Origin: Bacillota bacterium
Lineage (GTDB): Bacteria; Bacillota; SHA-98; Ch115; JABLXJ01
DNA: 52,097 bases
Assembly: GCA_012839815.1 (NCBI GenBank)
Contig: DUMQ01000072.1
Location: 1 to 52,097 of the forward strand
Direction: 5' to 3'
The notes beneath the pieces were generated by a model, which saw nothing but the letters and a program-made list of their open reading frames with translations, searched no databases and was not told where the DNA came from. Position numbers and translations under genes: made by a program. Positions 13,022-38,487 of this stretch are shown in pieces. Each line of letters begins with the position of its first letter. Position 1 is the stretch's first letter.

Positions 13022-14029
13022 GTGGCCGCAAAGAGGGTAGGAAAAAGAACAATCAGGTTACAGAATCCACCTTTCATCATAGCGACGGGGACCATCGTCG
13101 GCCCACAGGAGGGCAAGGGCCCCCTGGCAGATGATTTTGATGTCGTATCGCCCAATTATACCCTTGGCCAGAAGACACCTGAGCAGGCTGAAATGCGGTT
13201 CCTGGAGGAGGCCGCGAAGATAGCCCTTGAGAAGGCTGGATTGCAGCCCCACCAGGTGGATTATATGCTTGCCGGAGACCTTTTAAACCAGATAATCTCA
13301 TCGAGCTTTGCAGCGAGGCAGTTGGGCATACCTTACCTGGGCCTTTATGGCGCCTGCTCGACCTTTGCAGAGGGGGTTGGCCTGGGGAGCATGATAATAG
13401 ACGGGGGGTTTGCTGACAGGGTCCTGGTGGCGGTCTCAAGCCATTACCAGACCGCGGAACGGCAATACCGCTACCCCATTGAGTTGAACATCCAAAGGAA
13501 ACTAACGGCCAGTTACACCGTAACCGGTTCAGGGGTGGCGGTGCTATCAAACCAGGGACAGGGCACAAGGGTCACCCTCGTGACGGTGGGCGTAGTACTT
13601 GATCTGGGTATAAAGGATCCCAATGACATGGGCTCCGCCATGGCGCCCGCGGCGGCGGATACGCTGTTCTGGCACTTCTCTGACACGGGGACGAGGCCCG
13701 AGGACTACGATATGATCCTCACGGGGGACCTCGGCCGGGTCGGCAGGGTAATGTTGCTGGAGGTGTTGAAGGATAAAGGCATAATCCTGGAGGATAATTA
13801 CAATGACTGCGGTCTCATGATCTACTCCGACAAGCAGAAGGTCGGAGCCGGCGGGAGCGGGTGCGCCTGCTCGGCCGTTGTCACCCTCGGCCACATCCTG
13901 AGGCGCATGCAAAATGGTGAGCTGAGCAAGGTCCTGGTCGCATCGACAGGCGCCCTCCTGAGCCCCCTTTCATATCAACAGGGGGAATCCGTGCCGGGGA
14001 TTGCGCACGCTATCGTCTTGGAAAGGTAG
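13022..14029 (+). CDS. spoVAD: stage V sporulation protein AD (dipicolinate-binding)
   Basis: A 335-residue thiolase-fold protein. SpoVAD binds dipicolinic acid on the inner spore membrane. Diagnostic stretches are IRLQNPPFIIATGTIVGPQEG at the start (quoted only to residue 26), LGIPYLGLYGACSTFAEG and VTGSGVAVLSNQG. Length matches the family. The GTG start is preceded by GGGGGTGAGAGG. It is co-transcribed between spoVAC and spoVAE. Confidence 0.93.
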   Translation: MAAKRVGKRTIRLQNPPFIIATGTIVGPQEGKGPLADDFDVVSPNYTLGQKTPEQAEMRFLEEAAKIALEKAGLQPHQVDYMLAGDLLNQIISSSFAARQLGIPYLGLYGACSTFAEGVGLGSMIIDGGFADRVLVAVSSHYQTAERQYRYPIELNIQRKLTASYTVTGSGVAVLSNQGQGTRVTLVTVGVVLDLGIKDPNDMGSAMAPAAADTLFWHFSDTGTRPEDYDMILTGDLGRVGRVMLLEVLKDKGIILEDNYNDCGLMIYSDKQKVGAGGSGCACSAVVTLGHILRRMQNGELSKVLVASTGALLSPLSYQQGESVPGIAHAIVLER

Positions 14030-14039
14030 GAAGGGGTTT

Positions 14040-14390
14040 ATGATGTATCTCATGGCATTCCTGGTAGGCGGGCTGATCTGCGGGATCGGCCAGCTGATTC
14101 TCGATTATACCCGGCTCACGCCCGGGCATATGCTCGTAGGGTTTACAGTAGCCGGCGCCCTGCTTGGCGGCCTCGGCGTATACGAGCGGTTCCTCAAGGT
14201 GGCGGGTGCGGGGGCCCTGGTCCCTGTCTCGGGGTTTGGGGCCTCGCTTGTCAGGGGGGTCCTTGTCGAATCCGGGAGGCTCGGGTGGATTGGGCTTTTT
14301 ACAGGTGTTTTCGAATTCACCGGCCTCGGGCTTGCCGCTGCGGTCTTCTTTGGATTCCTGATAGCCCTGATTTTCAACCCTCGATCGTAG
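14040..14390 (+). CDS. spoVAE: stage V sporulation protein AE (SpoVAEb type)
   Basis: A 116-residue integral membrane protein of the SpoVAC/AE family; its FLVGGLICGIGQLILDYT mirrors the SpoVAC segment, and GALVPVSGFGASLVRG is the conserved polar loop. It is part of the dipicolinate channel. The start is ATG 14040 or 14043, after AGGAAGGGG (14028-14036). It is the last gene of the spoVA operon; a modest hairpin (14400-14419) follows. Confidence 0.9.
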   Translation: MMYLMAFLVGGLICGIGQLILDYTRLTPGHMLVGFTVAGALLGGLGVYERFLKVAGAGALVPVSGFGASLVRGVLVESGRLGWIGLFTGVFEFTGLGLAAAVFFGFLIALIFNPRS

Positions 14391-14536: not shown

Positions 14537-15625
14537 ATGGGCGTGACAGTAGGAGTTCCCCGCGCCCTTCTCTATTATCTTTACTACCCCATGTGGCATA
14601 CATTCTTTGAAGAGCTAGGGGCAGGCGTGGTGGTTTCTAAGGCCACAAATAAGCGAATACTGGATCTCGGAGTTAAGGCTACAGTGGATGAGGCGTGTCT
14701 GCCAGTAAAGGTGTTCCACGGTCACGTTCTCGACCTTGCGGAAGACGGGGATGTGGATTTCATCTTCATCCCGCGGATTGTCAGCACAGAGAGAAGGGCG
14801 TATATCTGTCCCAAGTTCATGGGGCTCCCGGATATGGTAAGGAATAATATAAGGCCGCTACCCCCCATCCTGGATACCTGCATCGACTTGAGCAAGGGTG
14901 ACGCGGGTTACTGGAGGGCTATATTCGACCTTGGAAGACAACTCGGTGCGCGGCCGTCCCGCGTCAGGAAGGCTTACAACCTGGCCGTCTCGAGGCTCAA
15001 GGAGTTTGATAGAGCCCTCGAGGCAGGCAGGCTCCCTGACGAAGCTATGCATTCCATGGGACTGGAGACCGGGATCGTGACCGGAACCGGAACTCGTGGT
15101 GCGGGGGCGGGTTCACCGGCGCCACAGAATGGCCTGCCGCAGGATAGCCTGCTTCGCGGCGGGCGCGCCGAGGCCGAAGCTGCCGCCGGTGGCGATGGTG
15201 ATGGTCTGTCCATTGCTGTGCTGGGCCACCCGTATAACACCTACGATAACTACATAAGTATGTCCATCATACCCAGGCTCCGAGATATGGGCGTGAGAGT
15301 CGTGACCGCGGAGATGATCCCTGAGGAGATTACGGAGGCTGCAAGTCAAAGGCTGCGAAAGAGGCTCTTCTGGACGCTCGGGCGGCGCCTTTTAGGAGCG
15401 GCCCTCCATTTTATTGAAAATGGAGGGATAGATGGCTGCCTTTATGTGAGTTCCTTTGGGTGCGGTCCGGATTCGCTGGTGGGCGAGTTGATCGAGAGGA
15501 GAGTAAAGCGTGAGGGGGCTTTTCCATTTATGATGGTTACGATTGATGAACAAACAGGCGAGGCTGGGGTTGTGACGCGCCTTGAGGCCTTTGTTGATAT
15601 GATCCGCCGGGGGCGGGCCGTATGA
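14537..15625 (+). CDS. 2-hydroxyacyl-CoA dehydratase-like / CoA activase-related protein (DUF2229-like), first paralog
   Basis: A 362-residue cytoplasmic protein of the group related to HgdB and the activase-associated DUF2229 domain. Cysteines stand in DEACLPVKVFHGHV, RRAYICPKFMGLPDMV and SSFGCGPDSLV, positions that could hold one iron-sulfur cluster. The C-terminal IDEQTGEAGVVTRLEAFVD recurs almost unchanged in the next gene, so the two are paralogs. A low-complexity, glycine- and alanine-rich insertion (about residues 180-220) separates the halves. GAGGTGAG precedes the ATG. The stop overlaps the next start (15622-15625). The substrate is unknown; radical dehydration or another low-potential reduction is possible. 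Confidence 0.7.
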   Translation: MGVTVGVPRALLYYLYYPMWHTFFEELGAGVVVSKATNKRILDLGVKATVDEACLPVKVFHGHVLDLAEDGDVDFIFIPRIVSTERRAYICPKFMGLPDMVRNNIRPLPPILDTCIDLSKGDAGYWRAIFDLGRQLGARPSRVRKAYNLAVSRLKEFDRALEAGRLPDEAMHSMGLETGIVTGTGTRGAGAGSPAPQNGLPQDSLLRGGRAEAEAAAGGDGDGLSIAVLGHPYNTYDNYISMSIIPRLRDMGVRVVTAEMIPEEITEAASQRLRKRLFWTLGRRLLGAALHFIENGGIDGCLYVSSFGCGPDSLVGELIERRVKREGAFPFMMVTIDEQTGEAGVVTRLEAFVDMIRRGRAV

Positions 15626-16764
15626 AGGTTACATTTCCTCATATGGGCAACCTCTACATACCCCTGAGGGCGCTTTTTGAAAACCTTGGCCTCACGGTGA
15701 TCGTCCCTCCAAAATCAAGCAAGAGAACCCTGACCCTCGGCACGCGCAACTCCCCGGAATTTGCGTGCCTCCCCCTAAAGGTGAACGTCGGAAACTTCAT
15801 TGAGGCGTTTGAGCTCGGCGCTGATGCCGTGGTGATGGCGGGTGGAGTCGGCCCGTGCCGGTTCGGATATTATGGCGAAGTGGAGAGGGAGATACTGGAG
15901 GACCTGGGTTACAATTTCGAGATGTTCATAATAGAGCCGCCGCAGGGAAGGTTTCGCGAGGTGCTTCACGAGTTGGGGCGGCTCGTTGGCAGGGTCACGG
16001 CGAGCCAGGTTATCCACGCAGTGCGAATCGCCTGGGAGAAGCTCTCCTCCGTGGAGGCGCTGGAGAGGCTGGCTGCCAAGGTGAGGGCCAGGGAGCTTCA
16101 AAAGGGGAGCGTGACGAAGGCGCTGGCCCAGGCCCTCAAGGATATCGATAAGGCCGAAACGCTAGGTGAGATAAGGACGGCTCGCCTGGACGGCCTTTCA
16201 ACCATCAGCGGGGTGCCCCAGCGGGAGGACTACACCCCTCTACGGGTTGGCATCGTTGGGGAGATATATGTAGTGCTCGAACCGTTTGTGAACCTCGATG
16301 TCGAACGGGAGCTCGGGGAAATGGGGGTTGAGGTGGAGAGGTCGATATACCTCGGCGATTGGATAGGCCTTCACGTGATCAAGGATATGCTGCGCTTTGG
16401 ACGGGGGAGCCTGAAGAGGGTCAAGAGGCTCGCAAGTCCCTATTTGCAGCACTTTGTGGGAGGACACGGCATCGAGAGCGTGGGCCATTCGGTTGAATAT
16501 GCGAGAAAGGGTTTCGACGGGGTCGTCCATCTTGCGCCGTTTACGTGCATGCCCGAGATAGTGGCTGAGAGCATCCTGCCGAGGGTGAGCAAGGACCTGG
16601 ATATCCCCATAATGAGCTTGATATTTGATGAGCACTCAGCGGACACCGGGGTGGTCACGCGTCTCGAGGCCTTTGTCGACCTTATATCCAGGCGACGGAG
16701 CCGCCTGGGCAACCTGGGGAAGGATACGGGGGATGTGAGTTATGCGGGGCTATATAGGCGTTGA
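15622..16764 (+). CDS. 2-hydroxyacyl-CoA dehydratase-like / CoA activase-related protein (DUF2229-like), second paralog
   Basis: A 380-residue paralog of the preceding protein. It shares the N-terminal pattern (FPHMGNLYIPLRALFENLG), ACLPLKVNVGNFIEA, a cysteine in GGVGPCRFGYYGE, one in APFTCMPEIVAES, and the C-terminal FDEHSADTGVVTRLEAFVD. The equivalent cysteines suggest each paralog binds one cluster and that the two form a heterodimer, as HgdA and HgdB do. It overlaps its neighbours on both sides (4 and 23 bases), which points to a stable complex. In many bacteria this domain is fused to the activase; here it is separate. Function is not established. Confidence 0.7.
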   Translation: MKVTFPHMGNLYIPLRALFENLGLTVIVPPKSSKRTLTLGTRNSPEFACLPLKVNVGNFIEAFELGADAVVMAGGVGPCRFGYYGEVEREILEDLGYNFEMFIIEPPQGRFREVLHELGRLVGRVTASQVIHAVRIAWEKLSSVEALERLAAKVRARELQKGSVTKALAQALKDIDKAETLGEIRTARLDGLSTISGVPQREDYTPLRVGIVGEIYVVLEPFVNLDVERELGEMGVEVERSIYLGDWIGLHVIKDMLRFGRGSLKRVKRLASPYLQHFVGGHGIESVGHSVEYARKGFDGVVHLAPFTCMPEIVAESILPRVSKDLDIPIMSLIFDEHSADTGVVTRLEAFVDLISRRRSRLGNLGKDTGDVSYAGLYRR

Positions 16765-17695
16765 TGTAGGATCTGTTAGCACCAATGTTGTTGCCATAGA
16801 CGATGAGGGAAATGTGATCGATAAGGTCTACCTGAGGACCCAGGGCCAGCCCATCAAGGTTGTACAGGAGGGCTTGAGGGCGATTGCGGCTAAATGCAGC
16901 GATATCGAGATCGCCGGAGCCGGGACCACGGGGAGCGGCAGGAGGCTGGCCAGCGTTATCGTAGGCGCTGATTGCGTTAAGAATGAGATAACAGCTCACG
17001 CAGTTGCGGCATCGCATGTAGTGCCAGGCGTCCAGACAGTGCTTGAAATCGGCGGCCAGGATTCGAAGATCATCATCTTGCGAAACGGCGTGGTCATAGA
17101 CTTCGCCATGAATACCGTCTGCGCCGCGGGCACGGGCTCATTCCTTGACCACCAGGCGACGAGGCTCAACATACCAATAGAGCAATTTGGGGATCTGGCC
17201 TTGAAGGCTGAGGTGCCCGTCAGGATCGCTGGCAGGTGCGCCGTCTTTGCCGAGTCTGATATGATCCACAAACAGCAGATGGGCCACAGGATCGAGGATA
17301 TAGTTTGCGGCCTATGTGAGGCCCTGGTGAGGAATTACCTCAATAATGTGGGTAAGGGCAAGGATATACTGCCTCCAATAGTGTTCCAGGGGGGTGTCGC
17401 AGCTAACGCCGGGATGAAAAGGGCCTTTGAGAAGGCCCTGGGGGAGACTGTCATTGTGCCGGAGCACTATAATGTCATGGGGGCGATCGGCGCGGCCATC
17501 CTGGCAGCCGAAGAGGTAAAACGCCGTGGAACGGGGACCCTCTTTCGCGGGTTTGACGTGGTGGATGAGGAGTTCGAAGCCCGGAGCTTTGAGTGTAAGG
17601 GCTGCCCAAACAGGTGCGAGGTGATCAACATCATAAGAGACGGCGATACGATAGCACGCTGGGGCGATAGGTGCGGAAAATGGGAGGCTCTTTGA
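16742..17695 (+). CDS. acyl-CoA dehydratase activase (BadF/BadG/HgdC ATPase family)
   Basis: A 317-residue ASKHA-fold ATPase like HgdC, which uses ATP to drive one electron into a dehydratase or reductase partner. Seen are the phosphate-1 loop GVDVGSVSTN, GTTGSGRRL, EIGGQDSKII, and the two cysteines that bridge a homodimer [4Fe-4S] cluster: NTVCAAGTGSFLD and AGRCAVFAESDMIH. FQGGVAANAGM is the adenosine motif. An extra C-terminal tail contains CKGCPNRC, perhaps a second metal or redox site. It overlaps the upstream paralog by 23 bases. Its likely clients are the two upstream proteins. Confidence 0.85.
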   Translation: MRGYIGVDVGSVSTNVVAIDDEGNVIDKVYLRTQGQPIKVVQEGLRAIAAKCSDIEIAGAGTTGSGRRLASVIVGADCVKNEITAHAVAASHVVPGVQTVLEIGGQDSKIIILRNGVVIDFAMNTVCAAGTGSFLDHQATRLNIPIEQFGDLALKAEVPVRIAGRCAVFAESDMIHKQQMGHRIEDIVCGLCEALVRNYLNNVGKGKDILPPIVFQGGVAANAGMKRAFEKALGETVIVPEHYNVMGAIGAAILAAEEVKRRGTGTLFRGFDVVDEEFEARSFECKGCPNRCEVINIIRDGDTIARWGDRCGKWEAL

Positions 17696-28375: not shown

Positions 28376-30556
28376 TTGGATATTATCCTATGTGAGCATG
28401 CGGGTTTTTGCTACGGGGTCAGGCGAGCCATTGATATAACCCTGGCTGCACTCAGGTCGCACGGCAAGGTGTATACCTTCGGCCCACTTGTTCACAATCC
28501 CCAAGCCGTGAAGCGGCTCGAGGAGAGCGGGGTAAGAGTGTGCGAGAGCCTCGAGGCGTGTGTTGATGGAACACTCATAATCCCTTCGCATGGCCTGCCT
28601 CCGCTTGTCATAGACGCCGCTAAGGAGAAAGGGCTGAATGTGGTCGACGCTACCTGCCCTCATGTCGGGCGAGCACAGCAACTCGCTCGGAAGGCGGCCC
28701 GTGAAGGCTACCAGGTTCTCATCGTCGGCGACAGGGGACACTCGGAGGTGGAGGGGCTATTGGGCTGGGCCGGGCCTCAGGCCATCGTGGTCCAAGATGT
28801 TGATGACCTGTATGGGGCGGAGATATCAAGCAAGGCAGCTATTGTGGTACAAACGACGCAAAGCTTCGACATGCTCAGGGATATTGCAGGTGCGGTCCTT
28901 GGGCGGACCAGAGAACTGGTGATATATAATACGATTTGCGGTGCTACGGAGGAGCGGCAGAACGCAGCGCGCGATCTAACATCGCGGGTTGATGCGATGG
29001 TAATTATTGGCGGGCGCGCGAGCGCAAATACAAGAAGGCTCTGGGAGGTGTGTAAGGCTTCTGGACGTAAAGCATACTGGATTGAGGATGCTGGCGAACT
29101 GGACGCGGGATGGTTTAGAGAGGTAAAGGCCGTGGGGGTTACGGCGGGGGCGTCCACGCCGAATTGGGTTATCGAGGAGGTTATACGCAAGATGAGAGAC
29201 CTGGATCAGGAGAAGTTGGATCAGGAGAAGTCGGGTGAGTTTGAGGGGGACCAGCTCGCGGCGGTGAACTCCGAGGGGGGGCCGGGTGATATGGCAGCTG
29301 GTGAGGGTGCTAGTGTGGCTCAGGCTCCGGCGGAGGGCGATAAAACGAGTGAAGGGCCAAATGGTGAGGGTCAGCAATTTGATGTATCTTCCCTCGGTAG
29401 TGCCGGAGATGTAATCGAGAAGGGGCAAATCATTAAAGGAACCGTGGTCCGGGTGGAGCCGGATCAGGTCCTTATTGACTTTGGACAGAAGTCCGAGGGT
29501 ATTATACCTATATCTGAGCTTTCAACCAGGCGCATTAATTCCCCGGCCGAGGTCGTGAGCGTCGGGGATGAGATAGATGTCTATGTTTTACAGGTCGAAG
29601 ACGAACAAGGAAACACGATATTGTCTAAGCGGAGAGCGGACCAGGAGAAGGCATGGGAGAGATTGACCAGGGCACTTACTACCGGCGAGACTATCGAGGG
29701 CACCGCAACCGCTGTGGTCAAGGGGGGCGTGGTGGTAGACGTTGGCACGAGAGGCTTTGTACCAGCTTCACATGTAGGCTTGCGGCCGGTTGCGGACCTC
29801 TCATCCATTGTGGGTACCCACATGCGTCTCAAGGTGTTGGAGGCCGATCGTTCAAGAAACAACGTCGTTTTGTCCCAGCGACTTGTCCTGGAGCAGGAAC
29901 AGGCTGAAGCGCGAGAGCGGGCGTTTGAAACCCTCAAGGAGGGGGATATCAAGGAAGGCACTGTCAAAAGGGTGGTAAACTTTGGGGCTTTCGTGGATAT
30001 CGGCGACGGAGTCGAGGGATTGCTCCACGTCTCGGATATGTCATGGGGGCGCGTAAAGGACCCGAAGGATGTAGTCTCCGAAGGTGACCATATAAAGGTA
30101 ATGGTTTTAGGTGTTGATAAGGAGAGGAGACGGATCTCCCTCGGCCTTAAACAGACGCTGCCCGACCCTTGGCTCGATATCGAGAAACGCTACCCTGTTG
30201 GGTCGATCGTCAAAGGGAAGGTCACGAAGCTAATGAATTTTGGGGCATTTGTAGAGCTCGAGCCGGGGGTAGAAGGACTTGTGCATATCTCGCAACTGGC
30301 GGACAGGCACGTCGCCAAGCCGGAGGAAGTTGTAGAGCCCGGCCAGGAGGTCAAGGTCAAGGTCGTAAGCGTCAAGCCCCAGGATCACCGCATAGGGTTG
30401 AGCATAAAAGAGGCGGAGCCTCCGGAGGAGAGGGTGGAAAAGTCAGAGAAGCAAGAAAGCCGGAACCCTCGCGAGAGTTATGTCGCCGGGGACGAAAATG
30501 AACATGGCCCGACGCTTGGGGATGTGTTCGGCGATCTCTTTGAAAAGGAAAAATAA
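28376..30556 (+). CDS. ispH: bifunctional HMBPP reductase / ribosomal protein S1 (IspH-RpsA fusion)
   Basis: A 726-residue fusion. Residues 1-275 are IspH, the last enzyme of the MEP isoprenoid pathway, with the three cluster cysteines C12 (HAGFCYGVRRA), C94 (DATCPHVG) and C188 (NTICGATEERQ). A glycine- and acid-rich linker (276-345) leads to four S1 RNA-binding domains (about 350-415, 432-500, 517-587, 603-673), the third and fourth with VNFGAFVDIGDGVEGLLHVS-type cores. Such fusions are known in Clostridia. The TTG start follows GGGGAG. The C-terminal tail is charged. Confidence 0.94.
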   Translation: MDIILCEHAGFCYGVRRAIDITLAALRSHGKVYTFGPLVHNPQAVKRLEESGVRVCESLEACVDGTLIIPSHGLPPLVIDAAKEKGLNVVDATCPHVGRAQQLARKAAREGYQVLIVGDRGHSEVEGLLGWAGPQAIVVQDVDDLYGAEISSKAAIVVQTTQSFDMLRDIAGAVLGRTRELVIYNTICGATEERQNAARDLTSRVDAMVIIGGRASANTRRLWEVCKASGRKAYWIEDAGELDAGWFREVKAVGVTAGASTPNWVIEEVIRKMRDLDQEKLDQEKSGEFEGDQLAAVNSEGGPGDMAAGEGASVAQAPAEGDKTSEGPNGEGQQFDVSSLGSAGDVIEKGQIIKGTVVRVEPDQVLIDFGQKSEGIIPISELSTRRINSPAEVVSVGDEIDVYVLQVEDEQGNTILSKRRADQEKAWERLTRALTTGETIEGTATAVVKGGVVVDVGTRGFVPASHVGLRPVADLSSIVGTHMRLKVLEADRSRNNVVLSQRLVLEQEQAEARERAFETLKEGDIKEGTVKRVVNFGAFVDIGDGVEGLLHVSDMSWGRVKDPKDVVSEGDHIKVMVLGVDKERRRISLGLKQTLPDPWLDIEKRYPVGSIVKGKVTKLMNFGAFVELEPGVEGLVHISQLADRHVAKPEEVVEPGQEVKVKVVSVKPQDHRIGLSIKEAEPPEERVEKSEKQESRNPRESYVAGDENEHGPTLGDVFGDLFEKEK

Positions 30557-35672: not shown

Positions 35673-37196
35673 ATGACCAGGATGAAAACTGCAGCGAAAA
35701 CAGGGAGGGGGGCTAGAGTAGCCGCGATCAAGCCCGGGTCAGCCGCCAGCGAGGCCGGCCTGGAGGGAGGCGATATCGTCCTTGGCATCAACGGCTCTCC
35801 TATCGCTGATATTATAGATTACAGGTTCCTTGAAACGGACACACACCTTGAGCTCGAGGTCATGAAGAAAGACGGGGAGCTCTGGGTGATAGATATAGAC
35901 AAGGATTATGACGAGGACATAGGGATAGAGTTCGAGTCTGTGACGTTTGACGGGATCAAGACGTGTCGGAATAGGTGCATATTTTGCTTCATAGACCAGT
36001 TGCCGGGTGGCCTGAGGGAGAGTCTTTATGTCAAAGATGATGATTACCGCCTCTCATTTTTATACGGGAACTTCATTACCCTGACAAACATGGCCCATGC
36101 TGATCTCGAACGTATTGCACGGATGAAGCTTTCGCCCCTTTACATCTCGGTTCACGCAACCTTACCTGAGATCCGGGCAAGGCTTCTGGGCAATCGAAAC
36201 GCCGGGCGGGTCATGGATCAAATTGGCTGGCTGGCCGGTTCCGGTATAGAGATGCACATCCAGGTAGTATTGTGCCCCGGTTTGAATGACGGGCGGGTAC
36301 TGGATACTACCATATCTGACCTGGCCGGTTTCTGGCCGCGTGTGAAATCCATCGGAGTTGTCCCCGTCGGCCTTACGCGTTACAGGGACGGGCTTCACCC
36401 TCTGAGACCGGTAACGAAGCTCGAAGCTCAAGCCGTGGTTGACCAAATTGAGGGATGGGCGGCGGAATTCAGGCGGCGGTTCGGGTATTCGTTTTGTTTC
36501 GCCGCTGACGAATTCTACCTCATGGCGGGGCGTGAGGTGCCGGACGCTTCAGCTTATGAGGATTTCCCCCAACTTGAAAACGGTATAGGGCTCATCCGGT
36601 TATTCCGTGACGAGCTCGACAAGCTACGCGGGCTTCAGGCCCCAACCCGAGCTCGCGGGGGCCGGGGCCAGGGCCGGATTTCCAGGAGCATATCCGTTGT
36701 GACAGGCATTCTTGCACAAGATATAATTAAAGAGGCGGCTTCATTTGTAGAGGAGAGCCTCCCGGGGCTTAGCTTGAGAGTATACCCGGTGAGAAACCGG
36801 TTCTTCGGCGATACTATCTCGGTTGCCGGCCTTGTCACCGGGAGAGACGTTATTGAGACCCTCTCCGCACAAGGAGCACCGACAACCGGAGGGATAGCAA
36901 TCCCGTCAGTAATGCTGAAAGCGGGCGAGAACGTCTTCCTAGACGGGATGAGCACGGGAGATATTGAAGCGGCTTTACATGGGCCGGTACACGTAATAGA
37001 GCCGACGCCGGGGGCGCTGTTTAAACTGGCGTGCGAGATCATGGGGGAGCGGGTCAGCGACGCGCGGTCCGGCCGCCCCGAACTCGACCCGGCAACGGCA
37101 GGGCATGGAGAAAGGCGGGTTAAGATCGGTGGTGAATACGCCGGTTGTAGCGATAGTGGGAAGACCCAATGTGGGGAAATCTACGCTATTCAATAG
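35673..37196 (+). CDS. PDZ and radical SAM protein, DUF512 family
   Basis: A 507-residue protein with an N-terminal PDZ-like domain (about residues 12-75, IKPGSAASEAGLEGGDIVLG), a radical SAM-like cysteine motif C98-x3-C102-x2-C105 (CRNRCIFCFIDQLPGG), and the DUF512 C-terminal domain. The function of the family is not settled. In many Clostridia the gene lies directly before der, as here, with a 68-base overlap to the chosen der start. A short low-complexity arginine/glycine stretch (ARGGRGQGR) lies near residue 330. Confidence 0.88.
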   Translation: MTRMKTAAKTGRGARVAAIKPGSAASEAGLEGGDIVLGINGSPIADIIDYRFLETDTHLELEVMKKDGELWVIDIDKDYDEDIGIEFESVTFDGIKTCRNRCIFCFIDQLPGGLRESLYVKDDDYRLSFLYGNFITLTNMAHADLERIARMKLSPLYISVHATLPEIRARLLGNRNAGRVMDQIGWLAGSGIEMHIQVVLCPGLNDGRVLDTTISDLAGFWPRVKSIGVVPVGLTRYRDGLHPLRPVTKLEAQAVVDQIEGWAAEFRRRFGYSFCFAADEFYLMAGREVPDASAYEDFPQLENGIGLIRLFRDELDKLRGLQAPTRARGGRGQGRISRSISVVTGILAQDIIKEAASFVEESLPGLSLRVYPVRNRFFGDTISVAGLVTGRDVIETLSAQGAPTTGGIAIPSVMLKAGENVFLDGMSTGDIEAALHGPVHVIEPTPGALFKLACEIMGERVSDARSGRPELDPATAGHGERRVKIGGEYAGCSDSGKTQCGEIYAIQ

Positions 37197-38487
37197 AATC
37201 ATAGGGGCCAGGGTGGCTATTGTTGAAAAGACGCCCGGCGTAACCAGGGATAGGATATATGAATGGGCGGAGTGGCGAGGCAGGCGCTTCCTGCTTGTAG
37301 ATACCGGTGGGATTGACGTGACCCCGGAGAAGGCCAGGACCGGAACCCGGGAGGATGACCCGGAGATCATAGAGAAGACGCGGCGCCAGGCCGAAATCGC
37401 CATAGCCGAAGCGGACATTATATTGTTTGTTGTCGACGCCAGGGACGGCGTTACGCCAGGTGATCATGATATCGCCGGTATCCTTCGACGCTCGGGGAAG
37501 CCGGTCCTCCTCGTCGCTAACAAGCTCGAGGGTGGAGGGAGACTTGAGGCCAGGCATATGGAGTTTTACGAATTAGGCCTTGGCGAGGCCTTCCCAATCT
37601 CGGCCATGCATGGCGAGGGCGTGGGGGATCTCCTCGATGCCGTAACGGAAATCATTGGAGGGCCGGGAGGTGCCGCTGAAGATGAAGGTGCCGGAGATGC
37701 TATAAAAATGGCCGTGGTCGGGCGCCCGAATGTTGGGAAATCCTCCCTTGTCAATAGAATCCTTGGCGAGGAAAGGTTTATAGTGAGCGACGTGCCCGGG
37801 ACGACGAGGGATGCCATAGATACCCTATTTCGTCATGGGGACCAGCTGTTTGAAATCATTGATACGGCGGGAATCAGGCGTAAATCAAGGATCAAGGACC
37901 AGCTTGAAAGGTATTCCGTTGTCAGGGCGCTCCGTGCAATAGATAGATGTGATGTCGCCGTCCTCGTTCTGGACGCCGTTGAAGGAGCGACTGAGCAAGA
38001 GACAAAGATAGGGGGGTACATCCATGAGGCAGGACGCGGCTGCATAATCGCGGTAAATAAGTGGGACCTGGTTAAGGAGCGCGAAGATGTTGCGTCGGAG
38101 CTTGAAAGTGATATACGGAACACCCTCGGTTTCCTGGACTATGCCCCCATTGTTTTCACATCGGCCCTTACCGGTAAGGGGGTGGCAACGCTTCTCCGAA
38201 GGGTAAAGGACGTCTTCACCGGTTGGAGCTCCAGGATACAAACCTCAGCCCTGAACCAGGTGATCCAGGAGGCTATAGTGAGGGTCGAACCCCCTTCACA
38301 TAAAGGAAAGGAGTTAAAGGTATATTATGGAACCCAGGTCAGGTCCAGGCCGCCGGCTTTTGCGATATATGTAAATGATCCTGATTTGATGCACTTCTCT
38401 TATGAACGGTATCTCGAGAATGAGATACGGGAGGCTTTCGGTTTTGAGGGCACGAAGATAGAGCTATGGGCGCGCAGGAAGACCTGA
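37129..38487 (+). CDS. der: ribosome biogenesis GTPase Der
   Basis: A double-GTPase protein of about 452 residues needed for 50S subunit assembly. Both G domains are complete: VGRPNVGKSTLFNRIIG with DTGG, then VGRPNVGKSSLVNRILG with DTAG and NKWD. The first domain has NKLE in place of the usual NKxD. The C-terminal KH-like domain ends the protein. GTG 37129 or 37132 after AAAGGCGGG is preferred; ATG 37105 also lies in frame inside the DUF512 gene. Confidence 0.95.
   Translation: MVNTPVVAIVGRPNVGKSTLFNRIIGARVAIVEKTPGVTRDRIYEWAEWRGRRFLLVDTGGIDVTPEKARTGTREDDPEIIEKTRRQAEIAIAEADIILFVVDARDGVTPGDHDIAGILRRSGKPVLLVANKLEGGGRLEARHMEFYELGLGEAFPISAMHGEGVGDLLDAVTEIIGGPGGAAEDEGAGDAIKMAVVGRPNVGKSSLVNRILGEERFIVSDVPGTTRDAIDTLFRHGDQLFEIIDTAGIRRKSRIKDQLERYSVVRALRAIDRCDVAVLVLDAVEGATEQETKIGGYIHEAGRGCIIAVNKWDLVKEREDVASELESDIRNTLGFLDYAPIVFTSALTGKGVATLLRRVKDVFTGWSSRIQTSALNQVIQEAIVRVEPPSHKGKELKVYYGTQVRSRPPAFAIYVNDPDLMHFSYERYLENEIREAFGFEGTKIELWARRKT

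Follow-up and report, generated by a model that had tools for sequence, protein, structure and literature searches.

A three-gene locus between spoVA and lysA

The stretch of DNA analyzed here (the window) comprises 52,097 nucleotides of a Bacillota bacterium (assembly GCA_012839815.1, contig DUMQ01000072.1, positions 1 to 52,097) and carries, among its sporulation genes, a trio of overlapping open reading frames (ORFs) designated DhA, DhB, and Act. A first reading of the sequence (the original prediction) had described two paralogs and an HgdC-type ATPase in a slot between spoVAE and lysA that contains no such genes in Bacillus subtilis. The ORFs, their profile matches and the spoVAEb and lysA flanks agree with that description, and the B. 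subtilis control genome gave no DUF2229 match. The features of the locus are:

14001..14390, + strand: spoVAEb (Pfam PF03862, 3e-30), the final gene of the spoVAC-spoVAD-spoVAEb block, 5′ of the trio
14537..15625, + strand: DhA, Red1/PlsA-like reductase subunit; DUF2229 with HGD-D C-terminus; C54, C91, and C309 are predicted cluster ligands
14696-14698, 14807-14809, and 15461-15463, + strand: DhA codons for C54, C91, and C309; invariant, common with PlsA-like Red1
15622..16764, + strand: DhB, Red2/PlsR-like reductase subunit; C49, C79, and C309 are predicted cluster ligands
15766-15768, 15856-15858, and 16546-16548, + strand: DhB codons for C49, C79, and C309; invariant, matching PlsA-like Red2
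16742..17695, + strand: Act, HgdC/BadF-type ATPase activator; bridging cysteines C127 (17120-17122) and C166 (17237-17239)
17594..17674, + strand: C-terminal four-cysteine (Cys4) module of Act, C285-x2-C288-x3-C292...C311; invariant, also in PlsA-like Act2

The trio shares the orientation of spoVAC-spoVAD-spoVAEb upstream and lysA downstream; DhA and DhB overlap by 4 bases, DhB and Act by 23 bases. Both paralogs are DUF2229-like, as had been proposed: the domain matches DhA across its full length (E 9e-57) and DhB in its N-terminus (E 3e-11). They are related over nearly their entire length (profile-profile E 1.5e-35, 316 columns), and the shared motifs of the original prediction (ACLPxKV, more exactly ACLP[VL]KV, a late C-P motif and GVVTRLEAFVD) were found again, the last identical in both proteins. 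A Gly/Ala-rich low-complexity stretch of DhA (approximately residues 182-222; window 15080-15200) is poorly conserved in the alignment and partly of low confidence in the structural model. Act matches the profiles BcrAD_BadFG (4e-48) and TIGR00241, and a PDB sequence search returned 1hux, 4eht, MbdQ, and DCCP-R as homologs. The source genome shows no DUF2229 protein apart from those of the trio, which would therefore be its only such system.

Cluster cysteines, fold and nearest relatives

Cysteine conservation was counted in homologs from public genomes (DhA, n = 70; DhB, n = 81; Act, n = 68). Each reductase subunit has exactly three invariant cysteines, C54/C91/C309 in 70/70 DhA homologs and C49/C79/C309 in 81/81 DhB homologs. 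Three cysteines, Cys95/128/380, also form the [4Fe-4S]-OH2 (aqua) site of BzdO (PMC11971306), and by this likeness DhA and DhB are each predicted to hold one single [4Fe-4S] cubane with an open iron site, in keeping with the single cluster per paralog first suggested. The bridging cysteines already recognized in the ATPase, C127 and C166, are kept in 68/68 Act homologs, as are C285, C288, C292, and C311, a set absent from the original prediction. This Cys4 module falls outside the part of Act that can be aligned with solved activators; it is probably an extra Fe-S cluster and probably a point of electron entry.

AlphaFold2 models built from window-plus-locus alignments had a mean predicted local distance difference test (pLDDT) score of 90 for DhA and 91 for DhB. 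When these were searched against the PDB with Foldseek, the top ranks for both subunits were occupied solely by the superfamily of benzoyl-CoA reductase (BCR), 2-hydroxyacyl-CoA dehydratase (HAD) and double-cubane-cluster protein (DCCP) (E 1e-4 to 1e-11, probability 1.00); DCCP was the top match for both, and the fold also matches HadBC and BCR. Judged from the models, DhA-DhB and Act belong to the BCR/HAD radical enzyme superfamily, since the fold and the bridging-cysteine activator both fit. The first-ranked match would also suit a DCCP relative that reduces small molecules, e.g., acetylene or hydrazine. However, the double cubane of BzdN is held by six cysteines (36/73/100/263/293/327; PMC11971306) as against three invariant cysteines in each trio subunit, so the double-cubane reading was rejected and an activity of this kind is extremely improbable.

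DUF2229 is also found in long fused proteins (~975-1490 aa) of many Firmicutes, and matches also occur in two control genomes (Lactococcus lactis, Thermotoga maritima). Lactococcus cremoris PlsA expressed in E. coli yields plasmalogens, and the Act1/Act2/Red1/Red2 layout has been published (PMC12838417). PlsA homologs of Thermotoga that have two activation domains are reported to be validated glycerol ester reductases (Ger; PMC13274423), the gene having first been pointed out in PMC8788747; activity of both PlsA and Ger is experimental (PMC12838417, PMC13274423). Nine fused PlsA-like proteins, identified as PlsA/Ger by architecture and by named control genomes, none being itself an assayed enzyme, were extracted for comparison, and all nine are arranged as Act1-Act2-Red1-Red2. 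The domain matched by Act is Act2, Cys4 module included (~2e-57 to 7e-67); DhA matches Red1 (~2e-30 to 8e-40), and DhB matches Red2 (best 3e-18 per domain; 2e-15 to 3e-25 for the whole protein). Identity is 18-33% per domain, and all twelve cluster cysteines of the trio are conserved in the fused proteins, six in Act2 and three each in Red1 and Red2.

By sequence and architecture, the nearest characterized relative of the trio thus appears to be the anaerobic plasmalogen synthase/glycerol ester reductase (PlsA/PlsR, Ger), of which the trio would be a split form with three genes and one activator (Act = Act2, DhA = Red1, DhB = Red2). We are highly confident that the trio is ATP-driven, works at low potential and belongs to the PlsA/Ger branch of radical enzymes. 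The original prediction had instead recognized the layout of a 2-hydroxyacyl-CoA dehydratase; the activator and the two-subunit enzyme of dehydratase/BCR fold were borne out, but membership of the dehydratases proper was not supported, PlsA/Ger, whose substrates are phospholipid esters, being nearer than HgdAB/HadBC. HadBC is matched weakly by profile (DhA E 0.008, DhB E 0.39) compared with ~1e-38 between DhA and PlsA-like Red1, in databases that differ in size. Some genomes carry the PlsA-like protein as pieces of ~980 and 450 aa (e.g., G349), as in the plsA-plsR pair of C. perfringens. One-activation-domain homologs have been reported in plasmalogen-making Bacillota (PMC13274423), and the same 2026 lipid paper notes PlsA homologs in Bacillota that have no activation domain, to which it assigns no clear role; DhA and DhB fit these proteins as described there, and the trio may explain them.

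Linkage to spoVA and to sporulating genomes

The order spoIIAA-spoIIAB-sigF-spoVAC-spoVAD-spoVAEb-(spoVAEa-spoVAF)-DhA-DhB-Act-(lysA/S2P/trpS/scpAB) recurs in dozens of diverse anaerobic Firmicutes, far beyond chance; cultivable carriers of the trio include Heliobacterium mobile (L064) and Desulforamulus aeronauticus (L061). A spoVA gene lies directly 5′ of DhA in 83 of 94 spore-locus copies (spoVAF 59, spoVAEb 13, spoVAEa 11), mostly at a distance of <100 bp and in more than half at ≤50 bp; one family has the trio inserted in the spoVA block, with spoVAEa on one side and spoVAF on the other. This layout argues for co-transcription with spoVA and hence for forespore timing. In the window, 146 bp separate spoVAEb from DhA, and the trio may therefore have its own promoter there. 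A promoter scan, which was given little weight as its shuffles preserved single-base composition only, showed clear sigma-F/G-like signals 5′ of spoVAC.

Gene content indicates that the three proteins belong together. DhA-DhB is a single ORF of 716-753 aa in 11 sampled genomes, which supports a DhA-DhB complex; eleven loci of this form, with fused DhA-DhB followed by Act, lie off the spore locus in genomes positive for SpoIVA. An adjoining Act is missing from 18/96 spore-locus DhA-DhB pairs, and full-length Act (520-572 bits) is encoded elsewhere in 12/12 genomes checked whose pair has no adjacent Act. In every genome checked, DhA-DhB was accompanied by an activator encoded somewhere in that genome. 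Several copies lie near an NfnAB-like pair, a FAD/NAD-binding protein and a GltA-like subunit (L074 12711-15447, L077 5502-6362, L126, L128, L190); L074 and L077 are S-type copies (see below), not near spore genes, in metagenome-assembled genomes labeled Actinomycetota. Such a pair points to ferredoxin-driven electron supply and would suit an ATP-driven electron injector that serves, like known low-potential activators, to reduce the cofactor of a protein or to repair an oxidized enzyme in spore formation or germination. A lone activator would require no Red subunits, however, and the trio has two, both of which share conserved sequence near the cluster sites with PlsA-like proteins; this reading is therefore very unlikely.

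The gene that adjoins the trio downstream bears on the substrate. The original prediction had proposed an ATP-driven, low-potential step linked to spores or to lysine/dipicolinate metabolism; the spore link stood, whereas the metabolic tie weakened, lysA being directly downstream in 19/96 loci and spoVA being the constant neighbor. A spore-linked enzyme of this kind acting on a non-lipid substrate (a CoA ester or other metabolite), perhaps tied to lysine or dipicolinate, would accord with the fold matches to HadBC and BCRs, with those lysA neighbors and with the role of SpoVA in moving dipicolinate. Yet dipicolinate arises from dihydrodipicolinate by oxidation, a step for which no low-potential donor is required, S-type copies also persist far from lysA, and sequence and domain order are nearest to PlsA/Ger. 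Lysine/dipicolinate was rejected as the leading interpretation on the lysA count, and we consider a non-lipid substrate unlikely overall.

The distribution of the trio was surveyed in 399 genomes of the phylum, with SpoIVA as the sporulation marker. DhB is present in 263/338 SpoIVA-positive and 16/61 SpoIVA-negative genomes (Fisher p 1.5e-14); three of these 16 carriers have SpoVAD, are probably sporulators with assembly gaps, and were reassigned to give 341 sporulators and 58 non-sporulators. With 16 SpoIVA-negative carriers, raw DhB presence was rejected as too loose a spore marker, and a tree of 182 DhB proteins was therefore built (two very divergent non-sporulator copies excluded) that separates a spore subfamily from its sister. 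Clade N (34 rows at a Shimodaira-Hasegawa-like approximate likelihood ratio test, SH-aLRT, value of 91; 33 rows at 97) contains 0/96 spore-locus copies; of the 12 copies in the tree that come from genomes lacking sporulation markers, 10 fall in it. All other rows, the gene of the window among them, make up subfamily S, S and N being the two sides of an unrooted split.

The original prediction had named equal frequency of the trio in non-sporulators as a result that would refute it; for the spore-locus subfamily the counts went the other way. Subfamily S occurs in at least 161/341 sporulators and 2/58 non-sporulators (odds ratio 25, p 5e-12 counting the 161 alone, p values here overstating independence as the genomes are related); the 161 are SpoIVA-positive genomes with a copy whose score exceeds that of all clade N members seen. 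Among the other 102 SpoIVA-positive DhB carriers, 62 were sampled, and 54 of these have an S copy by tree, 23 solely off the spore locus. Contrasts drawn within single families mostly point the same way (f62, f12, and part of f20). The spore linkage of subfamily S is real, and the subfamily is nearly restricted to sporulators.

These counts also bear on whether the trio is a housekeeping plasmalogen/ether-lipid enzyme of anaerobes, without a spore role and next to spoVA by old gene order alone. Clade N is found in non-sporulators and also as additional copies that have no constant neighbor, and DUF2229 proteins, mostly of the fused PlsA-like type, show no sporulator bias (among DhB-less genomes, matches in 35/45 SpoIVA-negative and 46/75 SpoIVA-positive). 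Subfamily S, on the other hand, is almost absent from non-sporulators, stays with sporulators even in the 23 sampled genomes where it is off the spore locus, and in one family sits within the spoVA block itself; a purely housekeeping role is rather improbable.

A constant partner was sought near non-spore-locus copies and none was found, the neighbors being dusB-greA-lysS, the NfnAB-like pair, fumC/manA, methionine gamma-lyase, dinG, and whiA. Five clade N copies (L107, L129, L130, L132, L150) lie near dusB, greA, lysS, and two conserved genes of ~190 and 300 aa, for which a Pfam scan gave no match in the members scanned; the gene order at L129 is DhA, Act, M20 peptidase, DhB. Elsewhere in the window are IspH (LytB) fused to four S1 RNA-binding domains (28376-30556), an arrangement known in Clostridia, and a protein with PDZ, radical-SAM-like and DUF512 regions (35673-37196) that adjoins a Der-type GTPase (37105-38487).

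Proposed function and comparison with known systems

A lipid ester is inferred to be the most economical substrate by analogy with PlsA/Ger. The trio may well be a radical reductase of lipid esters, driven by ATP, that the forespore makes together with SpoVA and that gives the spore membrane ether lipids; we judge this reading about evenly balanced between right and wrong. DhA and DhB would form a heterodimer with one three-cysteine [4Fe-4S] cluster and an open iron site per subunit, and Act would be a homodimeric ATPase with a bridging [4Fe-4S] cluster. Ferredoxin would feed Act, possibly via the extra C-terminal cluster, and Act would pass single electrons at very low potential to the heterodimer, which would most likely reduce a membrane glycerolipid ester via a radical intermediate to a vinyl or alkyl ether. 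Its place among the spoVA genes leads to the prediction that the trio acts in the forespore and puts ether lipids into the spore inner membrane.

Several observations weigh against this proposal. For none of the trios did data on activity, lipids or expression come to light; the sigma-F/G promoter signal directly 5′ of DhA is weak; and the fold search puts DCCP rather than a lipid enzyme first, although the PDB sequence search showed no competing PlsA entry. DhB is only ~20% identical to PlsA-like Red2, so its substrate may have changed. Two genomes without sporulation markers (G399 and G232) keep an S-type copy, and the within-family contrasts have exceptions. Many sporulators are without the trio (75/338 have no DhB, and B. 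subtilis has no DUF2229), so it cannot be a general requirement for sporulation.

Most of what is known about spore membranes comes from Bacillus; the presence of the trio suggests membrane-lipid reworking during sporulation in many oxygen-avoiding spore-formers. A broader proposal, to which we give slightly less credence, is that anaerobic Firmicutes possess a dedicated ether-lipid synthase made in the forespore, which supplies vinyl- or alkyl-ether phospholipids to the spore inner membrane only during sporulation and is an old, previously unrecognized part of sporulation absent in B. subtilis. If true, many anaerobic spore-formers would remodel their membrane lipids by radical chemistry while sporulating, with a bearing on spore resistance, germination, and dormancy. 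The open-access literature searched held nothing relevant tying DUF2229, COG3580/3581 or the activase to sporulation and no sporulation-linked split subfamily; relative to it, the fold and chemistry of the superfamily are known and the sporulation-linked split subfamily is new.

Among known systems, DCCP with its reductase DCCP-R resembles the trio in giving the best structural match per subunit and in having a separate ATPase reductase, but is a homodimer whose monomers each carry a double cubane, whereas the subunits of the trio have diverged from each other and have three invariant cysteines each. Class I BCRs (BzdNOPQ/MbdONPQ) share the fold, a BadF-type activator and the three-cysteine [4Fe-4S]-OH2 site of BzdO, but have two different activator subunits and, in one subunit (BzdN), the double cubane for which DhA and DhB lack the cysteines. 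HadBC, the (R)-2-hydroxyisocaproyl-CoA dehydratase, resembles the trio in fold (template modeling score, TM, ~0.55), separate activator and three-gene layout; its sequence likeness lies mainly in the C-terminal stretch, HAD substrates are CoA esters, and one HAD subunit carries a [4Fe-5S] cluster (PMC11971306). Ger of Thermotoga and Desulfatibacillum, which makes alkyl ethers (PMC13274423, PMC8788747), has the PlsA-like architecture with two activation domains in one chain, unlike the single activator of the trio, which matches Act2 and is a separate gene. PlsA/PlsR of Clostridium perfringens, Enterococcus, and Lactococcus shares the bridging-cysteine activator with C-terminal Cys4 as well as Red1 and Red2, and in C. 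perfringens the enzyme is likewise split, there over two genes; the trio differs in its three genes, in its one activator domain rather than two, and in its tie to spoVA and to sporulators.

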